32,841 bases of DNA from Verrucomicrobiota bacterium (GTDB taxonomy: Bacteria > Verrucomicrobiota > Verrucomicrobiia > Limisphaerales > SIBE01), in contig JACQWK010000220.1 of NCBI GenBank assembly GCA_016209525.1, positions 1 to 32,841 on the forward strand. The letters run 5' to 3'. Shown piece after piece: positions 3,877-23,399 of this stretch. Under the pieces are notes generated by a model, which searched no databases, was not told where the DNA came from, and saw nothing but the letters and a program-made list of their open reading frames with translations. The stretch's first letter is position 1. The number at the start of each line of letters is the position of its first letter. The position numbers were made by a program, and so were the translations under genes.

Positions 3877-4794
3877 TTATCGAGTTAGCTGAACGATTTC
3901 CTGCAAGATCGTGTCACTCGCCGTAACGACTCGAGCGTTCGCTTGGAACGCTCGCTGGGTGGTGATCATATTGGAGAACTCGCGAGCAATGTCAACATTG
4001 GACAGTTCCAAGGCGCCGCTCTCGATCCGGCCCAAACCACTGCTGTTGGGCGCGTTCTTCGTCGGCGTTGCGTCAAACGGCTGCGCCGCGGTGATGCCGG
4101 CGCCCAGAGGGCCCGCAGTCGTCAAACCGGTGTAAAGGTTGTTTCCTTGCTTCAGCAAAGCATTCGGATTCGAAAAACGCTGCAGCAGAATTTGACCACG
4201 GACGTATTGGGTGCCGTCACTCAACAAAATGTTGATCTTCCCGCTGCCATCAAGGGCGATGTTTGAAATCCCGGCATCTGCGGCCGCTGCTGCCGGCGCC
4301 GTGCCTTTGTCAAATTTGATGTGCCCTTGGGCATCGGCGTCCGTGTAGAGGCCGTCCGCAGCCGTCGGGGGATCTTGGAAGCCCTGGACGCGAAAGCCTT
4401 GGTCTGTCACGAGGAATCCGTTCGAATCGACGCGAAAATCGCCCGCGCGCGTTGCGAACAGCTCGTTGGTTGCGATGTTCTTGACAATGAAGAATCCCTC
4501 TCCGCTGATCGCCAAGTCGGTTGTGACCCCGGTCTGATTCACGGCTCCCTGAGTGAACAGATTGCGGACGGAGGCAATGTCAACGCCGTTTCCCACTTGT
4601 ACCGAGGAAGTGCCAGAACGGGTCGCCGAGTCCGGCGTTCCCGCTCTTAGAGTCTGGTTGAGCGTATCGGCAAATTCCACCCGGCCCGCTTTGAAGCCGA
4701 CGGTGTTCACGTTGGCCAAGTTGTTGCCGATGGTGTCGAGGTTGGTCTGATACTGTCGAATTCCAGTGACGCCTGTATTGAGTGCTCGAAGCAT
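3877..4794 (-). CDS. flgE: Flagellar hook protein FlgE (FlgE/FlgF/FlgG family)
   Basis: This is an axial protein of the rod/hook family, exported through the flagellar apparatus and polymerised outside the cell. The N-terminus (LDTIGNNLANVNTVGFKAGR, about residues 19-38) is the conserved flagellar rod/hook signature. The middle has DLAISGEGFFIVKN and TRAGDFRVDSNGFLVTDQGF. The C-terminus (LELSNVDIAREFSNMITTQR and on) is the FlgE/G C-terminal domain. It lies right after flgD (the hook cap), which is where the hook gene sits in Bacillus-type operons, so FlgE is preferred over FlgG. At 305 aa it is short for a hook protein (about 400 aa in enterics), so the outer surface domains must be reduced. 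A distal-rod FlgG role cannot be excluded from sequence alone. Confidence 0.85.
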   Translation of the reverse strand: MLRALNTGVTGIRQYQTNLDTIGNNLANVNTVGFKAGRVEFADTLNQTLRAGTPDSATRSGTSSVQVGNGVDIASVRNLFTQGAVNQTGVTTDLAISGEGFFIVKNIATNELFATRAGDFRVDSNGFLVTDQGFRVQGFQDPPTAADGLYTDADAQGHIKFDKGTAPAAAAADAGISNIALDGSGKINILLSDGTQYVRGQILLQRFSNPNALLKQGNNLYTGLTTAGPLGAGITAAQPFDATPTKNAPNSSGLGRIESGALELSNVDIAREFSNMITTQRAFQANARVVTASDTILQEIVQLTR

Positions 4795-4823: not shown

Positions 4824-5267
4824 TTACTGTTGGTTTGCCAAACGGATAGTCAGAATGTCGTTCAGGTCGTATTTTTCGTTCCCGATGATCAGTTTTGGAT
4901 TGTCTCCCTCCATGTCGAAACCTTTCACAATCCCCGTGGCAAGGCCGGTTTTCCCCGACTGAACGACGACTTCCCGATCGAGTAGCGACATGGCCTGCAA
5001 AACTTTTTGTTGTGATCGCATTTCCGCGATGTCGGCGGTCATCCCCTTGGTCTGTTCGAGGGTCGTAAACTGAGCCATCTGCGCGATAAACGCCGTGTCG
5101 CTCTGCGGCGCCAAAGGATCCTGGTTGGCTAACTGCGTCACGAGCAATTTCAGGAAATCTTGCTGGTCGAGCATCTTCGCCGGCATTCGGCCAAGAGTCT
5201 CAGCATCAGAAGCGCTCGGATCTGCGGTCCTTATCTTGATGCTTGGGTCCAAAGTTGCAGGAATCAT
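4824..5267 (-). CDS. flgD: Flagellar hook assembly protein FlgD
   Basis: FlgD is the hook scaffolding cap, which sits at the growing hook tip and is discarded after completion. The conserved N-terminal region is clear: DQQDFLKLLVTQLANQDPLAPQSD, then FIAQMAQFTTLEQTKGM, at about residues 33-80. A short C-terminal part follows (DREVVVQSG ... IVKGFDMEGDNPKLIIGNEKYDLNDI). The total of 147 aa is shorter than the roughly 230 aa of enteric FlgD, so the C-terminal tudor/FnIII-like domains are largely reduced, as in Bacillus FlgD. The gene is 3 bases downstream of fliK and 29 bases upstream of flgE, forming a hook module fliK-flgD-flgE. Confidence 0.94.
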   Translation of the reverse strand: MIPATLDPSIKIRTADPSASDAETLGRMPAKMLDQQDFLKLLVTQLANQDPLAPQSDTAFIAQMAQFTTLEQTKGMTADIAEMRSQQKVLQAMSLLDREVVVQSGKTGLATGIVKGFDMEGDNPKLIIGNEKYDLNDILTIRLANQQ

Positions 5268-5270
5268 AGG

Positions 5271-8200
5271 CTAAGCCCAACTTTCCCAGCCTCTGGCCGG
5301 TCTGGCCGGTCTGGCGGCTGGCGGTGTTGACCGTTGTTTTCTAGGTTCGGAGGATTCACCGTTGAATCGAAGATCAAACTCGCGAAATTCAGGATCTCGC
5401 GAGCCATCGCTGCCTTGCTGCGGCTGACGGTGGTTCTCCGAGCTCATGGAATTGGTATTCTGCGACGCGAAGTATTGGGAGGCCTCGGTCTCAAGGGGCC
5501 GCAACTGCACGCCTCGGTTCGCCAACTGGGACTGAAGCTCGGGCCAACTCGGCGCGATCGCTTCCCAATTCCCGCTCTCCAGCCGGGCCTGGATGACCAA
5601 TTGGTCTTCCCGCAATTTCAGTCGCAAACTCAACTCCGTCTGTTCGTCTGCGCGAATCCGCACGACCCAATCATGCGCGCCCGCCGAGCGAAAACTCTCC
5701 ACGGCTGACCACACCCTCTCGGCGAGCCGGAAGTGCGTCGGATCGTGCACTCTCGCCGAGGAAATGGTTTCTCCGAATTCACCGACACCGTGCGCCAATT
5801 CAAACGATCCGTTCCGCGAAGCTGCCATTTCGGCCAATTGTTCGTTTGAAACGACCGTCCTCGCCCGAGCCGGCTCATTGACCGACATCGCCCGTTCCGG
5901 AATCCGGGAAGGGCTGTCATTTTTGCCCGAAGCCGGCATATTTTTCCCGGCCAATTCGATGGCCGGCTCGCTATCTTTGGTCGAAACCATGCGCGGAGTC
6001 TGTTGAGCATCTAGTGTGCCGCGGCGGTCAGATGGCCGGTCGGGCCTCGAACTCCCAAGGCCTATCGGCGCATCGCCGAACGATGCCGCGGACGAGTCCG
6101 GCGAAGGTGCTGTCCGGCTAAGCTCGGATCCCTCCGCATTCAAAGTTCCCTCAGGTTGCTCCGGCCTTATAGTGGTGCGGTTCAGAGAGGGCGACTCTGC
6201 ATCGCGCGATTCAAGAAGTCCGATCCGTTGTGGAGTGGATGCCGGGATTGGGCGACCCTGAGCGGCTTCTTGTGCGAGAAGCGTGGGGCTCGAAACCTTG
6301 GAACTCTTTTCGGGGAGGTCTGGTCGCGTTATCACATTGGCGCCAGCCTCATCCACTTGATTCCTCGCGATCGCGCCGGCATTGACGGTATCAATCGAAA
6401 ATGGTCGCAATCGCGGTCCGGTTGGCTCGTTAGATTGCAGCCGGTCTCTCGAGGCCATCGCGACCTCCATTTTGCTTGTCTTCGGATTTTGCGCCACAGC
6501 CTCTCGTGTATCGCCGGGCTTCTCCGATCGCACCAATTCACGCAGCGTCGCCACCGAACTGGAAGATTGTTCCAACGATTGTGGCACTGACGGGTTCGAA
6601 GAAGGCTGTGGTGAGCCCTCAGATTGAGGTCGGTTTCGGTGACGGGTCTCTGGGGTCGGCCCCGAGGGGTCGCCCGCTCGGCCTTGACGATCTGTTCCTG
6701 TTCCTCCTCCGAAGCTCGGAGCAACAGGTTGTGCCGGCTTTCGAATCTCGCCCTTATGAACCCCGCTTTGGACTGTACCATCAGCCCGTTGCTCGAGTTG
6801 ATCCGGCAGGAGGGTACCGACAATTGGGCCGGTCGAGCCGCCAGCCTGCGCTGCGTTAACGACGACTTCCGGCTCCGTTAAGGCAATATTGGTCGGCACT
6901 GCTCTCACTCGCAGTCCGGCGTTCACGCTGGGATCGTGGCCGGCCACCTTGACATTCTTCTCTGGCATCGACGTCGAAGATCCGCCAAGTCTCTCCTGGG
7001 GACTGACCAACTTCTCGTCAACCCTCGGGACACCGCTTCCAAGATCGGTTTCCAGCGAGACACTCCCGAAATCGTGGAATGTGGGTCGGAGGGGAGTGGG
7101 GCTCTGAGAGGATGTGGGAGGACTGACTGGCTTTGCCGGTTGGCCACTCGAACTCTCATTCGAGTCAAGTCCACTGAATTGGATTCCAATCGCAGACCTC
7201 TGCAGGTTCGCCGGCTTAACCGTAGGGATTCCAGATTGGCTCTCTGCTCCATCGGCAACTGCCGCGTCTGATGGTAGCGGGATTCCACCCCCGACCGTGG
7301 CCGATTCAGCACTTTTGGCTAATGTTCTTGTTCTCCCCGCTAATGGGATATCACTCTTGAACGATACGGAATCAGCACTGACGATTGAATCCGCGTCGTG
7401 TGACACGCCAAAGGCATCACTGCGGGCCTGTTTTTGGCTCCCAACGGCGGCGGAGACGTTTGGTTTCAGGTTTTGCTGCCCGACGACAGGAGAAGAAGCT
7501 CCAAGGAGCGTTGGTAATGCAACTGGGGCTTTAGGCTCATTGCTCGTCGGCTTCGCAATGACTCCCGCGTTTGCCACCTGACGTCCTGTTCCGGTGAGTG
7601 AGGAACTTTCAGGAGGACTGATCGGCGCTTCATGGCCTGGGTCAACCTGACGCCCCGTTCCGGTGATTAAGGAACCTCCACGAGGAGTGATCGGCGCTTC
7701 ATGGCTTGGGTCAACCTGACGCCCCGTTCCGGTGATTAAGGAACCTCCATGAGGACTGGTCGGCGCTTCATGGCCTGGGTCAACCTGACGCCCCGTTCCG
7801 GTGATTAAGGAACCTCCATGAAAACTGATCGGCGCTTCATAGGCTCGTTCAACCTGACGCCCTGGTCCACTGGGCAAGGAAATTTCAGAGACAGCAGCTT
7901 GCAAGTTTTCCGGCTGACCATCAGTGGACGCCACGCCTGACGCTGTCGGACCTTTGAACTTGCTCGGGCTTTCGAATCCCATGCGCCGACTGGAAAACGG
8001 CCCTGGTCCGTCAGGCATCTCGCTCGATATCTCAGGTCTTGGTTGCGGGCCGTTCTCCAGAATGGGAGCACCCGCTCCTGGCAGAACCTCCGTTTCTCCG
8101 CCGGGGATCGAGACTCCCTGCCGGCTGCCACTAGTGCGGTTGATCGACGGCTGCACCGCACCACCTGCATCTCTGACACCCGTCCAACCGGCGGCCGAGT

Positions 8201-8768
8201 ATGCACTGGCGACGCGAGAAGTAATCGGTGCGGAAGCCGATCCGCGTTCCGGCTCACCGATTGCGCTGATCGTCGAATCGGGCAGCTCTGAGCCTGACGT
8301 TCCGCGGCCTTCAAGAGGGTCGCGGGGGAGGGTAATCGGAAGCCCGGCAATGATGAGCGATTGAATAAGCTGAGTTGGGTCCGGCCCCGTCAGGAGAGAA
8401 TTTTCCGACTCTGTCGCGCCATCGGCGCTCGACATTTCAACTTCATCACCTGGTTCCGCAGACTTCGGCAAAACAGGGGACTGTTCGTTCAGTAAAGGCA
8501 CGCCCGATAGAGGAGGGGCCATCGACGCCACAATTGCGGAAGTGGGCTGGAGTATCCCTGGAAGCGCAGCAGGATTTGTCCCTGGCTGTTGCTTCGCGCC
8601 TGCGTCGATCAAATTGCTAGCATCCGGTCCCGCAGCCGAGGAAATCACGAGGACTGTCTCGAAAGAGTCGCCGAGGAGCGCTCCTTCAGGAGAGCCACCG
8701 GGCAACGCATTCAAGAGCGCGCCCTCGTTCGGGCTGGGCTTGTTAATATCGAACTGTAGAACGTTCAT
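5271..8768 (-). CDS. fliK: Very large FliK-type hook-length control protein
   Basis: FliK is secreted during hook growth, measures hook length and switches export specificity through its C-terminal domain. The 1165-aa product is assigned by position (motE-fliK-flgD) and by a C-terminal Flg_hook-like domain at about residues 1010-1105, with LAERVWSAVESF, a strand-rich stretch containing TELSLRLKLREDQLVIQARL, and LRPLETEASQYF. It is about three times longer than the 405-aa enteric protein. The first 1000 residues are low-complexity, rich in Ser, Pro, Gly, Thr and Ala, and predicted to be unfolded. Residues about 295-397 form a 23-residue tandem repeat, listed separately. The gene overlaps motE by 4 bases (ATGA at 8765-8768). 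The very C-terminus is basic and proline-rich. The frame stays open across all 3.5 kb, so it is probably intact rather than a pseudogene. Confidence 0.88.
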   Translation of the reverse strand: MNVLQFDINKPSPNEGALLNALPGGSPEGALLGDSFETVLVISSAAGPDASNLIDAGAKQQPGTNPAALPGILQPTSAIVASMAPPLSGVPLLNEQSPVLPKSAEPGDEVEMSSADGATESENSLLTGPDPTQLIQSLIIAGLPITLPRDPLEGRGTSGSELPDSTISAIGEPERGSASAPITSRVASAYSAAGWTGVRDAGGAVQPSINRTSGSRQGVSIPGGETEVLPGAGAPILENGPQPRPEISSEMPDGPGPFSSRRMGFESPSKFKGPTASGVASTDGQPENLQAAVSEISLPSGPGRQVERAYEAPISFHGGSLITGTGRQVDPGHEAPTSPHGGSLITGTGRQVDPSHEAPITPRGGSLITGTGRQVDPGHEAPISPPESSSLTGTGRQVANAGVIAKPTSNEPKAPVALPTLLGASSPVVGQQNLKPNVSAAVGSQKQARSDAFGVSHDADSIVSADSVSFKSDIPLAGRTRTLAKSAESATVGGGIPLPSDAAVADGAESQSGIPTVKPANLQRSAIGIQFSGLDSNESSSGQPAKPVSPPTSSQSPTPLRPTFHDFGSVSLETDLGSGVPRVDEKLVSPQERLGGSSTSMPEKNVKVAGHDPSVNAGLRVRAVPTNIALTEPEVVVNAAQAGGSTGPIVGTLLPDQLEQRADGTVQSGVHKGEIRKPAQPVAPSFGGGTGTDRQGRAGDPSGPTPETRHRNRPQSEGSPQPSSNPSVPQSLEQSSSSVATLRELVRSEKPGDTREAVAQNPKTSKMEVAMASRDRLQSNEPTGPRLRPFSIDTVNAGAIARNQVDEAGANVITRPDLPEKSSKVSSPTLLAQEAAQGRPIPASTPQRIGLLESRDAESPSLNRTTIRPEQPEGTLNAEGSELSRTAPSPDSSAASFGDAPIGLGSSRPDRPSDRRGTLDAQQTPRMVSTKDSEPAIELAGKNMPASGKNDSPSRIPERAMSVNEPARARTVVSNEQLAEMAASRNGSFELAHGVGEFGETISSARVHDPTHFRLAERVWSAVESFRSAGAHDWVVRIRADEQTELSLRLKLREDQLVIQARLESGNWEAIAPSWPELQSQLANRGVQLRPLETEASQYFASQNTNSMSSENHRQPQQGSDGSRDPEFREFDLRFNGESSEPRKQRSTPPAARPARPARGWESWA
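7577..7885 (-). repeat. 69-bp in-frame tandem repeat inside fliK
   Basis: The marker CCTGACG (CCTGACGT in the first copy) recurs at 7577, 7646, 7715, 7784 and 7853, which is an exact 69-base period. In the protein this is a 23-residue repeat with the pattern GTGRQVDPGHEAPxSPxGGSLI. Three to four central copies are nearly identical at DNA level and the outer copies are more diverged. Nearly identical central copies suggest recent expansion by slippage or unequal recombination. Because the period is a multiple of three, copy number can change without breaking the frame. Confidence 0.95.
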
Positions 8769-9514
8769 TTGGTTCCTGGGAGCTTGGGCTTTTCGCCAAG
8801 CTTGCGGATTTTTTCGCTGATCATGGTTGCTTTGCCTGTCTCCGCGGTCAGCTTGTTGGTGGCAAAATTCTCCAGAATAAGCGCCTGTTCTTTGAAATCC
8901 ATGAACACGAGGATTTTTGCGACATCATCCTCCGCCATGCCATTGAGGATTTGCACAGCTCCGTGCGGCGGCATATTTGTGTAAACCTTGGCGAGATCCT
9001 TGAGTCGGTCCTCTTCCGTCTTGTCCCTCAGGTTCATCTGATTCGTAAGCTCGGACATGAGCAACGCCTTGGCTCTCAAAACCTCCGAGGTAATCGCGCC
9101 GATTTCCGCCTTTTCGGCAGCCAGCCGCTTCGCCAGTTCGTCAAGTTCGTGTGCCTTGGCCAGGAGAGCCCCTCTTTCCCGCCTGAGTTCTTCGACCATT
9201 GTTCGAACGTCCGGCGCATCGAATCTGAGGGATCCGGGCTCAGTTACGACCCCGGAAAACGTTGTGGCGGGGGTGAGCGTGGCGACTGGAGGTTTAGCGC
9301 TTTCCTCAGAGGCCGCGTGTTCTTCCGACGTCGGCTTTTCTCCAGGAGCGCTCTCTGAGACTCCGTTGGTGGCGGTGCCGACGGCATTCGTGCCTGCGGC
9401 GGCCGGAGCTTGTTCGACGGGTTCCCGGAGCATGACCATCAGGATCATGGGTATGCCGAAAGCGACGGCGGCTGCCACGGCGAGGAACCATTTGGCTGTG
9501 AGAATCTTTGTCAT
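8765..9514 (-). CDS. MotE-type flagellar protein (YlxF homologue, MgtE_N-like)
   Basis: This 249-aa protein sits between fliJ and fliK, the position of ylxF/motE in the Bacillus fla/che operon. MotE-family proteins are chaperone-like inner-membrane proteins linked to stator or export function. It has an N-terminal membrane anchor (about residues 8-29), an Ala/Glu/Ser-rich periplasmic linker, a coiled coil (about 105-165, including ELRRERGALLAKAHELDELAKRL in part), and a C-terminal MgtE-N-like helical domain (VYTNMPPHGAVQILNGMAEDDVAKIL, then FKEQALILENFA). The start has an excellent Shine-Dalgarno sequence, listed separately. It overlaps fliK by 4 bases. The family call is good, but the exact function is inferred from position and homology. 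Confidence 0.85.
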   Translation of the reverse strand: MTKILTAKWFLAVAAAVAFGIPMILMVMLREPVEQAPAAAGTNAVGTATNGVSESAPGEKPTSEEHAASEESAKPPVATLTPATTFSGVVTEPGSLRFDAPDVRTMVEELRRERGALLAKAHELDELAKRLAAEKAEIGAITSEVLRAKALLMSELTNQMNLRDKTEEDRLKDLAKVYTNMPPHGAVQILNGMAEDDVAKILVFMDFKEQALILENFATNKLTAETGKATMISEKIRKLGEKPKLPGTK

Positions 9515-9520
9515 ACCTGA

Positions 9521-9529
9521 ATCACCTCC
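9521..9529 (-). promoter_or_regulatory. Strong ribosome-binding site for motE
   Basis: On the minus strand the sequence GGAGGTGAT lies 6 bases before the ATG at 9514. It is a near-perfect complement of the 16S rRNA 3' end. It overlaps the stop codon of fliJ (TGA, 9524-9522), so ribosomes finishing fliJ can start motE directly. Most other genes in this operon lack such a clear site. Confidence 0.85.
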
Positions 9530-9980
9530 ATTTCAAGGCAAAATTGCCGATGGATTTCAGGGTGGCGATTTCGTCGAGAGCTTTCTGTTCAAGGCGGGCG
9601 GCTTGGACCTTATGCCGGGCTAATTGACGGTGATAAACTTTTTCGACGATTTCACGTTCTTGTCGGGCTTTGAGCATGATTTGGGATTTCTCATCGAGAA
9701 CCGCCTGCGCCTTCTGCAAATCGGCTTGCCAGCGTCGTAAAGCATCTTGCAGAGTTCGCAGACCGTGCTGGATCTGCTGAAGGTCCTCAGAGCTCGCAGC
9801 GCTCTTGAGCACGTCGCGACGACACGCGAGCGTTTCATCGATTTCTTGCCGGAGTTGGCGAACTTGCGAAGCGTTCCTCTCGACCTCGGCCTGAGCCAGG
9901 GCAAATGCCTCGAGGGCCTTGTTCTCCTGATTCAACCTCAGTGTCAGCACGGCCTGCAGGGGAAAGCGGAACGGTTTCAT
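9522..9980 (-). CDS. fliJ: Flagellar export protein FliJ
   Basis: FliJ is a cytoplasmic coiled-coil protein that inserts into the FliI hexamer, links it to the export gate and escorts chaperones. The 152-aa product starts MKPFRFPLQAVLTLR, which matches the FliJ N-terminal pattern (FxFxLQxVLxLR), and continues as an almost uninterrupted amphipathic helix rich in Glu, Gln, Lys and Arg. The usual family length is about 145-150 aa. It precedes motE with the ribosome-binding site embedded in its stop codon. It is separated from fliI by 164 bases that carry a palindromic repeat, so the normally tight fliI-fliJ pair has been pushed apart. Confidence 0.92.
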   Translation of the reverse strand: MKPFRFPLQAVLTLRLNQENKALEAFALAQAEVERNASQVRQLRQEIDETLACRRDVLKSAASSEDLQQIQHGLRTLQDALRRWQADLQKAQAVLDEKSQIMLKARQEREIVEKVYHRQLARHKVQAARLEQKALDEIATLKSIGNFALKWR

Positions 9981-10144: not shown

Positions 10145-11524
10145 CTAACGGCTGCGTTTCTTATTCTCAACCGGCGGCGGTGGCGGTCGCAAGATCTCAG
10201 CCAGGAGCTGCCAGCTTTCGGCCATCGTCTTCGTCTCCCGGACGGCCTGGCGGAGAAAAGTGATGAGCGGGCCTTGCAGCCGGATCGCTTGATCGATCGC
10301 TGGGTTGCTCCCGGCCGTATAAGCGCCGATGGTGATCAAATCTTGGTTTTTTCGATAAAGCGCGGCCGTCTCGCGGGCGTGCCCCATCAACTCCAGTTGC
10401 TCGGGAGTCAGCAGGTCCCGAGTCAGACGGCTAACGCTCTCTTGAATATCAATCGCGGGGTAGTGATTCAAAGCCGCCAGCTCCCGAGTCAGAACCAAGT
10501 GGCCATCCAGAATGGAACGAACCGCATCCGCAATGGGATCGTTCATGTCATCCCCTTCCACCAAGACCGTGAAGAGTCCGGTAATCGAGCCATTATCGTC
10601 GTTCCCGGCGCGTTCCAGCAACTGCGGCAGCAGGGCGAAGACCGAGGGAGTGTAGCCTCGGGACGTCGGCGGCTCCCCTACGGCCAGACCAATCTCTCTT
10701 TGGGCCATGGCCAATCGTGTCACCGAATCCATCATCAAGAGTACGTTCTTGCCTTCGGCGCGGAAGTACTCCGCAATGGTCATCGCTAAAAACGCCGCCT
10801 TAATTCGGACAAGGGAAGGCTGGTTTGATGTGGCCACTACGACCACGGATTTTGCGCGGCCTTTCTCGTCGAGGTCGCGTTCAATAAACTCTCGAACCTC
10901 CCGTCCTCGCTCCCCGACCAGCGCGATGACGTTGACATCCGCCTCAGCGTGACCCGCCATCATGCCCAACAGGGTCGATTTGCCCACGCCGCTCCCGGAG
11001 AAAATGCCGAGGCGCTGGCCTCGACCGCAGGGCACGAAGGTGTCGATGGCTTTGATCCCTGTTTGAAACTGTTTCGTAATCCGGTCCCGTTTGAGAGGAT
11101 GCGGCGGAGCCAAATTCGGCTCCTCGAGCGGCATGCTCGTCACGGGGCTGCCGCCGTCGATCGGATTGCCGAGTCCGTCGATCACGCGCCCTTTTAGCTC
11201 GGCGCCGACCGGCACGCGCAGAGGTGCGCCGGTGGCCACGACCAAACTGCCCGGGTGAATTCCGTTCAATTCACCGAGCGGCATCAGGAGGAGATTCTCA
11301 TTGCGGAAGCCCACGACTTCAGCGAGCACTCCTTCCGGGCTCGAACTGGATTCAATCCGGCAGACATCACCGATCGCCGACATCGGCCCTCTGGACTCGA
11401 CGACCAGACCGATCATCTGAGCGACTCGGCCATGGCGTTCGATCAACGAGGATGCACGCAGGCGGGAACGCGCCTGTTCCACCAGCGTCGGCGTCGGTGT
11501 AAACTCTTCGACGAGTTTGATCAT
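10145..11524 (-). CDS. fliI: Flagellum-specific ATPase FliI
   Basis: FliI is the cytoplasmic ATPase of the flagellar type III export apparatus, homologous to the F1-ATPase beta subunit. The 459-aa length is standard. Walker A, GSGVGKST, is at residues 177-184. Walker B, VLLMMDSVTR, is at 261-270, with Asp266. Between them is ALVGERGREVREFIERDL (about 201-218). The C-terminal region around SRGYTPSVFALLPQLLERAG (about 289-308) is typical, and the signature for FliI-type ATPases is intact. The ATG overlaps the fliH stop as ATGA (11521-11524). All expected catalytic motifs are present, so the protein should be active. The product ends in a short basic/proline-rich tail (RPPPPPVENKKRSR). Confidence 0.97.
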   Translation of the reverse strand: MIKLVEEFTPTPTLVEQARSRLRASSLIERHGRVAQMIGLVVESRGPMSAIGDVCRIESSSSPEGVLAEVVGFRNENLLLMPLGELNGIHPGSLVVATGAPLRVPVGAELKGRVIDGLGNPIDGGSPVTSMPLEEPNLAPPHPLKRDRITKQFQTGIKAIDTFVPCGRGQRLGIFSGSGVGKSTLLGMMAGHAEADVNVIALVGERGREVREFIERDLDEKGRAKSVVVVATSNQPSLVRIKAAFLAMTIAEYFRAEGKNVLLMMDSVTRLAMAQREIGLAVGEPPTSRGYTPSVFALLPQLLERAGNDDNGSITGLFTVLVEGDDMNDPIADAVRSILDGHLVLTRELAALNHYPAIDIQESVSRLTRDLLTPEQLELMGHARETAALYRKNQDLITIGAYTAGSNPAIDQAIRLQGPLITFLRQAVRETKTMAESWQLLAEILRPPPPPVENKKRSR

Positions 11525-16553: not shown

Positions 16554-17054
16554 TAGGAGACGGGCCTGCGATACTCAATCGCCTCTGAGGCCGCTCGGTG
16601 CGTAGGTTTCCAAGCCGTCCGCGCGCGAATCGATGTGGCGATCCGCAACCGCAGACGCAAGGCGGCGGATATCGGTCCTAATCAGGGCCTCCTCTTTGTT
16701 ACCTTGGCGGCACGAATGCACGGTTGCATCGACATTCCTGAGCGCCACTCGGCGAGTTGAGGCTCGGAGAGTGGCTGGCAAAACTTTCCCTCTACGACCG
16801 GTCTGGTTCCTTTGTGTATGGAAGTTTTTTCCTCGACACTTCGCTGGAAATGCCGATATCACGGCGAAGATCGCAGGCTGTCGCTGCGATGAATGCATCT
16901 CAAGCCGGTTTGAGTTCCGATTCTAGCGGCACAGATTCCGCTGCGAGACTCAGCAACTGACAAGCGGACAAAATGCACGTCAAGACTGGAACCATCTCAG
17001 TTAACTGCGATTATTTTGAAGATTGAAAGGAACGTTCAGGTCATTCGGAACCTC
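16554..17054. other. Divergent spacer between flgB and the Sel1 gene
   Basis: This is about 500 bases between two divergent genes. Short open frames exist on both strands (for example minus 16575-16898 and plus 16757-16960), but none shows a recognisable domain, signal peptide or good ribosome-binding site. I treat the region as regulatory. A GCCGATAT word at 16852-16859 resembles a FliA-type -10 box, but no matching TAAA -35 lies at the right distance. Confidence 0.5.
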
Positions 17055-18743
17055 ATGCGGATCTACCGAGTTCTAGTGATGCTCGCGGCGGTCCCGCTGA
17101 TCTCACCGACGATGTTGGGTGCGGCGAATGCCGCCTCGACGGGAGCGTCTCCCCTTCAAAGTCAGATATCCAAATGGAAAACAGCCGGCGAAAAAGGGGA
17201 AGCCTGGGCGTGCTTCAACCTTGGTTTGGCCTATCATCTTGGAAAGGACGTCGAAAAAAACGAGGCAGAAGCCATCAGATGGTACTTGTTGGCGGCCGAA
17301 AAGGGGTTTGCCGCGGCTCAAGCGAACTTAGGATACTGCTATGAGACAGGTTTTGGCGTACCTGTGGATTACGCCGAAAGTGTGAAATGGTACCAACTGG
17401 CGGCTCAGCAAGGTCATCCATTTGCCCAATACAACTTAGGAAAAAAATACCAAACCGGTCCCGGTGTTCCCATCGATCCAAAGATGGCTGAGAAATGGCT
17501 CCGACAAGCAGCGCAACGAAACTTTGTTCCGGCCTATTTCAGCTTGGGCCAGATTTATGCCAACGATACTTCGGGGAATGCCGACTATCGTGAGGCTTTC
17601 AAGTGGTTTAAGACCGCCGCAGAACAGGGCTACGCGCCTGCCCAACACGCCATCGGCTACCTATACTTCGAAGGCAAAGGAGTTCAGACAAACTACTTCG
17701 AGGCCGTGAAATGGTACAGCCTCGCTGCGAGCCGTAATTTTGCAGACTCCCATTACAACCTTGGTATCTGCTACGAACGCGGGTTCGGCGTCCCGCAAAA
17801 CCTGGTTGCTGCGGTCACGCATTACCGGACCGCCGCCGAATTTGGCCATCCGTACGCCCAGTACAGCATTGGCGTTTGCTATTACGAAGGCAAAGGCCTC
17901 GAGGCGGATTTTCTTCAGGCCTACAAATGGTGGAATTTGTCCGCTGTGCAGGGAATCCCTGAGGCTGCGTCCAGCAGAGAAATCCTGACGCGTCTCATGA
18001 CCGAAAGCCAAATCAAGGAGGGCCAGCGCCTCGCCAGTGAGTTCGTCCCGAGACAATCCACCGCTCACGAGGGCCCCAAACCTGTCGCGACGCCCTCCGC
18101 CGATGTCTCGGAGATCAAGAGAGTCGGCACCGGCTTCCTGGTTTCATCGGATGGTTTCCTTGTCTCCACACTCCGGACTGTTGCCGGCGCTACGAACATT
18201 CAGGTGATCACGGAAGGCGGAAGCTTTACGGCGAATCTCGTGCATGCCGATCCTTTGGGTGACATTGCGCTTCTGAAGGTGCTCGGCGTCTTCCAACCTT
18301 TGCCGCTCGTTCCGACGCGGGAAAGCGCGGTCAAAGACGGGATCCTCGCGTTGGGTTTTGACAACGAGAATCAGGGCCAGTTTAATCCCAAAGTCGCGCG
18401 AGGGAGCATCACGGCGCTGCTTGGGTTTCAAGCGGATCCGCGGCAATTGACTCTCCAACCGCATGTCGCGGCGCCTTTCGTCGGGACCGCAGTCGTGAAT
18501 CGTCACGGGCAAGTGATCGGCATGATGTTGGCCGTTCCTCCAGGGACAGTGCCGTCGGAGGCCAAGGACAGCCCGCCTCCCACGGTTAGCTACGCGCTCA
18601 AGAGCGAGCATTTGATCAATTTCCTTCGAAGTATTCCGGAAGCCAAGCCCCTGGTGGAGGAACCGAGATCCGGCGAGGCTAGTGCGGTGGAGGAAGTCCT
18701 ATCGAGAGCACGGGCGGCGACGGCGCTCATCGTCGTGCTGTAA
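17055..18743 (+). CDS. Secreted Sel1-repeat protein with a degenerate trypsin-like domain
   Basis: With the ATG start the 562-aa product has a signal peptide (about residues 1-26, ending in ANA); a TTG 13 codons upstream is possible. Residues about 45-310 contain seven Sel1-like repeats of 34-37 residues (pattern AQYNLGxxYExGxGVPxDxxEAxKWYxLAAxxG). These form a helical scaffold for protein binding. Residues about 355-535 resemble an HtrA/trypsin fold (GTGFLVSSDGFLVSTLRTV, then DPLGDIALLKV). The catalytic His position holds Arg374 and the nucleophile Ser position (normally GNSGGPLVN) reads FVGTAVVN with Val476. Only Asp403 is kept. The domain is therefore probably a non-catalytic binding module in the periplasm. 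It lies between two motility operons, but a motility role is only suggested by location. Confidence 0.85.
   Translation: MRIYRVLVMLAAVPLISPTMLGAANAASTGASPLQSQISKWKTAGEKGEAWACFNLGLAYHLGKDVEKNEAEAIRWYLLAAEKGFAAAQANLGYCYETGFGVPVDYAESVKWYQLAAQQGHPFAQYNLGKKYQTGPGVPIDPKMAEKWLRQAAQRNFVPAYFSLGQIYANDTSGNADYREAFKWFKTAAEQGYAPAQHAIGYLYFEGKGVQTNYFEAVKWYSLAASRNFADSHYNLGICYERGFGVPQNLVAAVTHYRTAAEFGHPYAQYSIGVCYYEGKGLEADFLQAYKWWNLSAVQGIPEAASSREILTRLMTESQIKEGQRLASEFVPRQSTAHEGPKPVATPSADVSEIKRVGTGFLVSSDGFLVSTLRTVAGATNIQVITEGGSFTANLVHADPLGDIALLKVLGVFQPLPLVPTRESAVKDGILALGFDNENQGQFNPKVARGSITALLGFQADPRQLTLQPHVAAPFVGTAVVNRHGQVIGMMLAVPPGTVPSEAKDSPPPTVSYALKSEHLINFLRSIPEAKPLVEEPRSGEASAVEEVLSRARAATALIVVL

Positions 18744-21558: not shown

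Positions 21559-23399
<1,841 letters not shown>

Follow-up and report, generated by a model that had tools for sequence, protein, structure and literature searches.

In the order Limisphaerales, fliK (the gene for the hook-length control protein) is a hotspot of in-frame tandem repeats and lengthens by duplication of the repeat unit. This finding across the order is new; a literature search, with most subscription journals outside its reach, found no paper describing fliK tandem repeats. We favor, with a probability of roughly two in three, the reading that FliK of these bacteria is a long disordered ruler between an export signal and a switch domain, and that it lengthens by in-frame repeats that would extend the hook.

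In a C-domain alignment search of 320 genomes from the order (one per species, mostly drafts), 126 proved to have FliK, and 124 loci were extracted. TRF arrays with a score of at least 100 are present in 20 of the 124 fliK genes (16%), and every period (6 to 408 bp) is divisible by three. Array density in fliK is 3.3 times that of the flanking DNA (p = 2e-4). Among the array units tested by blastn, none are related between genera, and within a genus only those of G010 and G085 are shared; the arrays thus arise anew. Array-bearing FliKs are longer than the rest (median 1039 vs 543 aa, p = 5e-6), and longer genes also offer more room for arrays. Contig breaks in fliK (0.146 per kb) are 2.5 to 3 times commoner than in the flanks (about 0.05 per kb, p = 2.7e-4), and arrays hold 8 of the 24 fliK breaks while making up 2.2% of fliK DNA (p = 2.6e-8); for all array and break statistics the thresholds were picked during the analysis, the species are not independent, and assemblers are expected to break at repeats. 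Because the breaks concentrate within arrays, true arrays often exceed their assembled length.

Genus g116 supplies the one clean example of a copy number that changed between related species. A 55-aa unit is present as one copy at the same position in G306, G293, G301, and G298 and as four tandem copies in G304. The G304 FliK has 1039 aa; less three copies (165 aa) it would have 874 aa, compared to 881, 876, 878, and 890 aa in the four congeners (in the same order). The G304 remainder aligns to the congeners with 6 to 34 gap columns and 62 to 66% identity. It was concluded that the G304 ruler gained 165 residues by repeat gain. An earlier note on DNA from this order had proposed that repeat number could vary between strains without frameshift; here such a change is seen between species, in relatives. 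The hook protein has 285 aa in G304 and three of the four congeners (G306 reads 232 aa). At the Salmonella slope given below, the 165 added residues are predicted to add 33 nm of hook.

That note concerned a stretch of 32,841 nucleotides from a 10-Mb draft genome in 764 contigs. We call the whole stretch the window. It carries a minus-strand flagellar operon (fliF, fliG, fliH, fliI, fliJ, motE-like, fliK, flgD, flgE, fliL, and fliM, with fliP farther on). The features discussed here are:

3877-4794, minus strand: flgE, 305-aa hook protein with D0/D1 only (Pfam PF00460, PF22692, PF06429)
4824-5267, minus strand: flgD, hook cap (Pfam PF03963)
5271-8768, minus strand: fliK, hook-length control protein, 1165 aa, start codon overlapping the motE-like stop
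5274-5285, minus strand: C-terminal ESWA tail
5466-5744, minus strand: folded C-terminal substrate-switch domain of FliK, about residues 1009-1101
5919-6026, minus strand: segment GTxDAQ...GKNxP...KNDS before the switch domain, conserved at family level
7587-7862, minus strand: four full in-frame tandem copies of a 69-bp (23-aa) unit, FliK residues 303-394, with flanking partial copies reaching to about 7575 and 7885
8649-8663, minus strand: N-terminal F-x-x-x-L motif (F36-L40), a putative export signal resembling a gate recognition motif
8765-9514, minus strand: motE-like gene with an MgtE_N-type segment (Pfam)
9522-9980, minus strand: fliJ (Pfam)
10145-11524, minus strand: fliI (Pfam)

The fliK ORF is intact with no internal stops; it has the 1165 aa given in the earlier note and lies between the motE-like gene and flgD. 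Its ATG overlaps the motE-like stop in ATGA, and an AGGA ribosome-binding-like site lies upstream of the ATG. The gene sits next to flgD and flgE, where a FliK gene is expected, and the order motE-fliK-flgD-flgE is kept in relatives. Separate flgF/flgG genes are found elsewhere in the genome, apart from the window flgE. A FliF scan of contigs gave three distant Bacillota loci as its sole matches. Elsewhere in the window, Sel1 repeats are fused to a trypsin-like domain at 17016-18743, encoded on the other strand from the flagellar operon, and a 7-bp unit (CGTAAAT) is repeated five times in tandem at 23352-23386 between putative enolase-like (minus strand) and homoserine-dehydrogenase-like (plus strand) genes, names read from the sequence. 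About 1.6 to 1.8 kb downstream of fliK, relatives carry recurrent in-frame tandem repeats at one site, probably the fliL linker.

A Pfam search with the window FliK alone gave no matches, and PF02120 (Flg_hook) had no significant match across the genome, so the identification rests on alignment, fold, and synteny. Syntenic genes from 26 relatives align with the window FliK over its last 240 residues, and the C-terminus hardly varies among them (most commonly E-[ST]-W-A). PF02120 is matched at E<=0.1 by 20 of the 27 aligned family members, and the family profile matches the Salmonella FliK C-domain (PDB 2rrl, E = 0.0039). In the AlphaFold model the C-terminal core has a pLDDT above 90. The two best PDB entries in a Foldseek search with this core are 2rrl (FliK C-domain, E = 1.6e-4) and 5cuk (PscP switch domain, TM 0.68 of the target); Foldseek against viral proteins returned nothing under E = 0.001. 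Early export substrates carry a gate recognition motif (PMC8983047). Its pattern is F-x-x-x-hydrophobic. Of 100 order FliKs, 93 have such a motif near residue 36, compared to 25% of shuffled N-termini and 10% of internal windows, which fits a gate recognition motif. WA are the last two residues in 120 of the 124 order FliKs. In other bacteria switching requires the final five FliK residues (PMC8545394), and the invariant tail fits such a need. The genome also encodes FlhB with the autocleavage motif NPTH. The window protein is a genuine FliK of an ordinary flagellar export system, and the earlier identification is borne out by the switch-domain fold, the N-terminal motif, and this FlhB.

The window FliK is proline/serine-rich, and its first 500 residues are predicted to be unstructured (mean pLDDT 38). 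This supports the earlier description of a mostly disordered FliK short of proving it, since the low pLDDT derives from five sequences only. Compared to the sister species, the middle region is only about 26% identical and the C-terminal part 53%.

TRF reports a period-69 array at 7576-7862 with 4.2 copies, 90% matches, no indels, and a score of 455, the sole strong TRF array in the window. The repeat that the note had described in fliK is thus real and in frame, with four full 23-aa copies. In the protein, a degenerate half copy precedes the four full copies, which accounts for the array end at 7885 in the note, and a GRQV stub follows them. Codon shuffles of the 124 fliK genes gave no array with a score of at least 100, so the window array is not a product of chance composition. 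It is single-copy in the genome; a mobile or dispersed repeat was considered and rejected, as the unit is found only in fliK within this genome. The unit is absent from the sister species, and in a search for a precursor in sister species the best local score in G002 was not above that of shuffled sequences (p = 0.19). Copies 2 and 3 differ by four codons, all non-synonymous.

Among complete FliKs of the order (n = 97, excluding the doubtful complete frame of G141) the median length is 570 aa and the range about 400 to 1813 aa. Three are longer than 1165 aa; the giant FliK is not unique to the window species. Flg_hook frames elsewhere in the phylum span 242 to 827 aa in a PF02120 survey, which sees only FliKs near the Pfam model; very long FliKs therefore seem typical of several lineages within the order. 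The hook protein of the window does have the 305 aa given in the note, but it is not minimal: the order median is 285 aa, and 82 of 109 FlgEs are shorter. Hook proteins of known structure span at least 402 to 851 aa. Hook subunit size is set by the outer domains and tells little about hook length. FliK and FlgE lengths are uncorrelated (rho = 0.09, p = 0.40), and we rejected a pairing of long FliK with short FlgE; the suggestion that a long ruler beside a small hook subunit is unusual is not supported. Two side observations on hook proteins were made. FlgE has about 560 to 690 aa in three relatives (L055, L061, and L062) and carries a large insert near the position of residues 165-175 in the window FlgE. 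Hook-domain proteins are also encoded outside the flagellar operon (L063:8935-10329 in G000:C704, L059:4994-6397 in G001, and L065:4919-7186 in G044). Each has a signal-like N-terminus and FlgE-like D1 domains in tandem (two or three) but lacks D0 helices; PF22692 is matched in the L063 and L059 proteins. These are apparently hook domains reused in another secreted protein.

In the proposed mechanism, FliK would act as an intermittent tape that is exported through the hook during its growth, and the FliK switch domain would meet FlhB once the hook reaches the length permitted by the stretched ruler. Since the domain would reach FlhB only at that length, each extra repeat would permit a longer hook. 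Unequal recombination or slippage between repeats could change ruler length freely, provided that the frame is kept, because the ruler sequence is little constrained. Salmonella FliK variants of 363 to 785 aa give hooks of 42 to 135 nm, or 0.2 nm per residue (PMC6126814), and the value for a fully extended chain is 0.37 nm per residue (PMC6972891). At the Salmonella slope one 23-aa copy would correspond to about 4.6 nm of hook. For the window organism the same slope would predict a hook of about 207 nm, an extrapolation to a disordered protein of 1165 aa from values obtained with helical inserts up to 785 aa; the hook would be longer still if the disordered proline-rich ruler is fully stretched. 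A broader reading is tentative, with the odds somewhat against it: FliK of the order would be a fast-evolving ruler in which birth, expansion, and loss of repeats reset hook length between species, and the longest rulers would give hooks of about 200 to 340 nm, several times the enteric length. Long hooks impair swimming in Salmonella (PMC6126814), and selection need not lie behind the long FliKs, which may simply be tolerated.

The linker might instead gain repeats by recombination in a neutral manner, its sequence and (within limits) its length mattering little, with hook length mainly set otherwise or reaching saturation. The middle region is nearly unalignable among many congeners (24 to 27% identity), FliK lengths within a genus can vary by 200 to 550 aa, and neighboring copies of the window array differ by 1 synonymous and 17 non-synonymous codon changes, all of which speak for neutral expansion. 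Length is nevertheless steady within 23 to 34 aa in some genera (652-675 aa in g44 at 24% middle identity, 459-493 aa in g94), as expected if length is constrained, and in Salmonella hook length is known to depend on that of FliK (PMC6126814). We consider the neutral account unlikely.

Less probable again, and compatible with the ruler reading, is that repeat number flips within populations and gives differing hook lengths, like YscP or the Periscope surface proteins. YscP repeat number does vary among Y. enterocolitica strains (PMC3469391), and the excess of contig breaks in fliK and within its arrays would suit such flipping; but any long repeat can end a contig during assembly, so the breaks are no proof of population variation, and strong arrays are present in just 16% of fliKs. 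Misassembly as the source of the window array or its copy number is very improbable. The copy number rests on one draft assembly (the genome is in 764 contigs), and arrays do sit at contig ends elsewhere in the order. This array, however, is internal to a 97-kb contig, its copies bear distinct substitutions with the frame intact, and unrelated arrays are found in many independent assemblies.

The window FliK shares with Salmonella FliK (405 aa) an N-terminal export signal, a ruler, a flexible linker, a C-terminal switch domain (fold match 2rrl), and FlhB as partner. Salmonella FliK is 760 residues shorter, whereas the window FliK has an N-terminal 500 residues predicted to be without a folded domain, an internal tandem repeat, and the order-specific ESWA tail. 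YscP of Yersinia injectisomes (SctP family) is likewise a ruler, whose natural length variants differ in the number of 14-, 25-, and 46-aa repeats (PMC3469391), and the switch-domain fold is common to its relative PscP (5cuk). YscP (452-538 aa) serves an injectisome needle rather than a hook, and its repeats are common among strains of one species while the fliK units of the order are new in each lineage. Periscope Proteins also change length by in-frame tandem repeat number (PMC9704523); they are folded stalks of surface-attached proteins, whereas FliK is an exported, disordered measuring protein.

Most tests of ruler control of hook length have so far used engineered Salmonella FliK. The order represents a repeated natural version of that experiment: between related species the hook proteins are equal in size, and FliK varies by little other than whole repeat units; because fliK repeatedly gains lengthening in-frame repeats, it offers natural test pairs for the relation between ruler and hook. 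Its hooks could show if the ruler law stays linear well above 785 residues and if disordered rulers obey it too. As in YscP of injectisomes, a ruler gene can evolve by simple repeat expansion.
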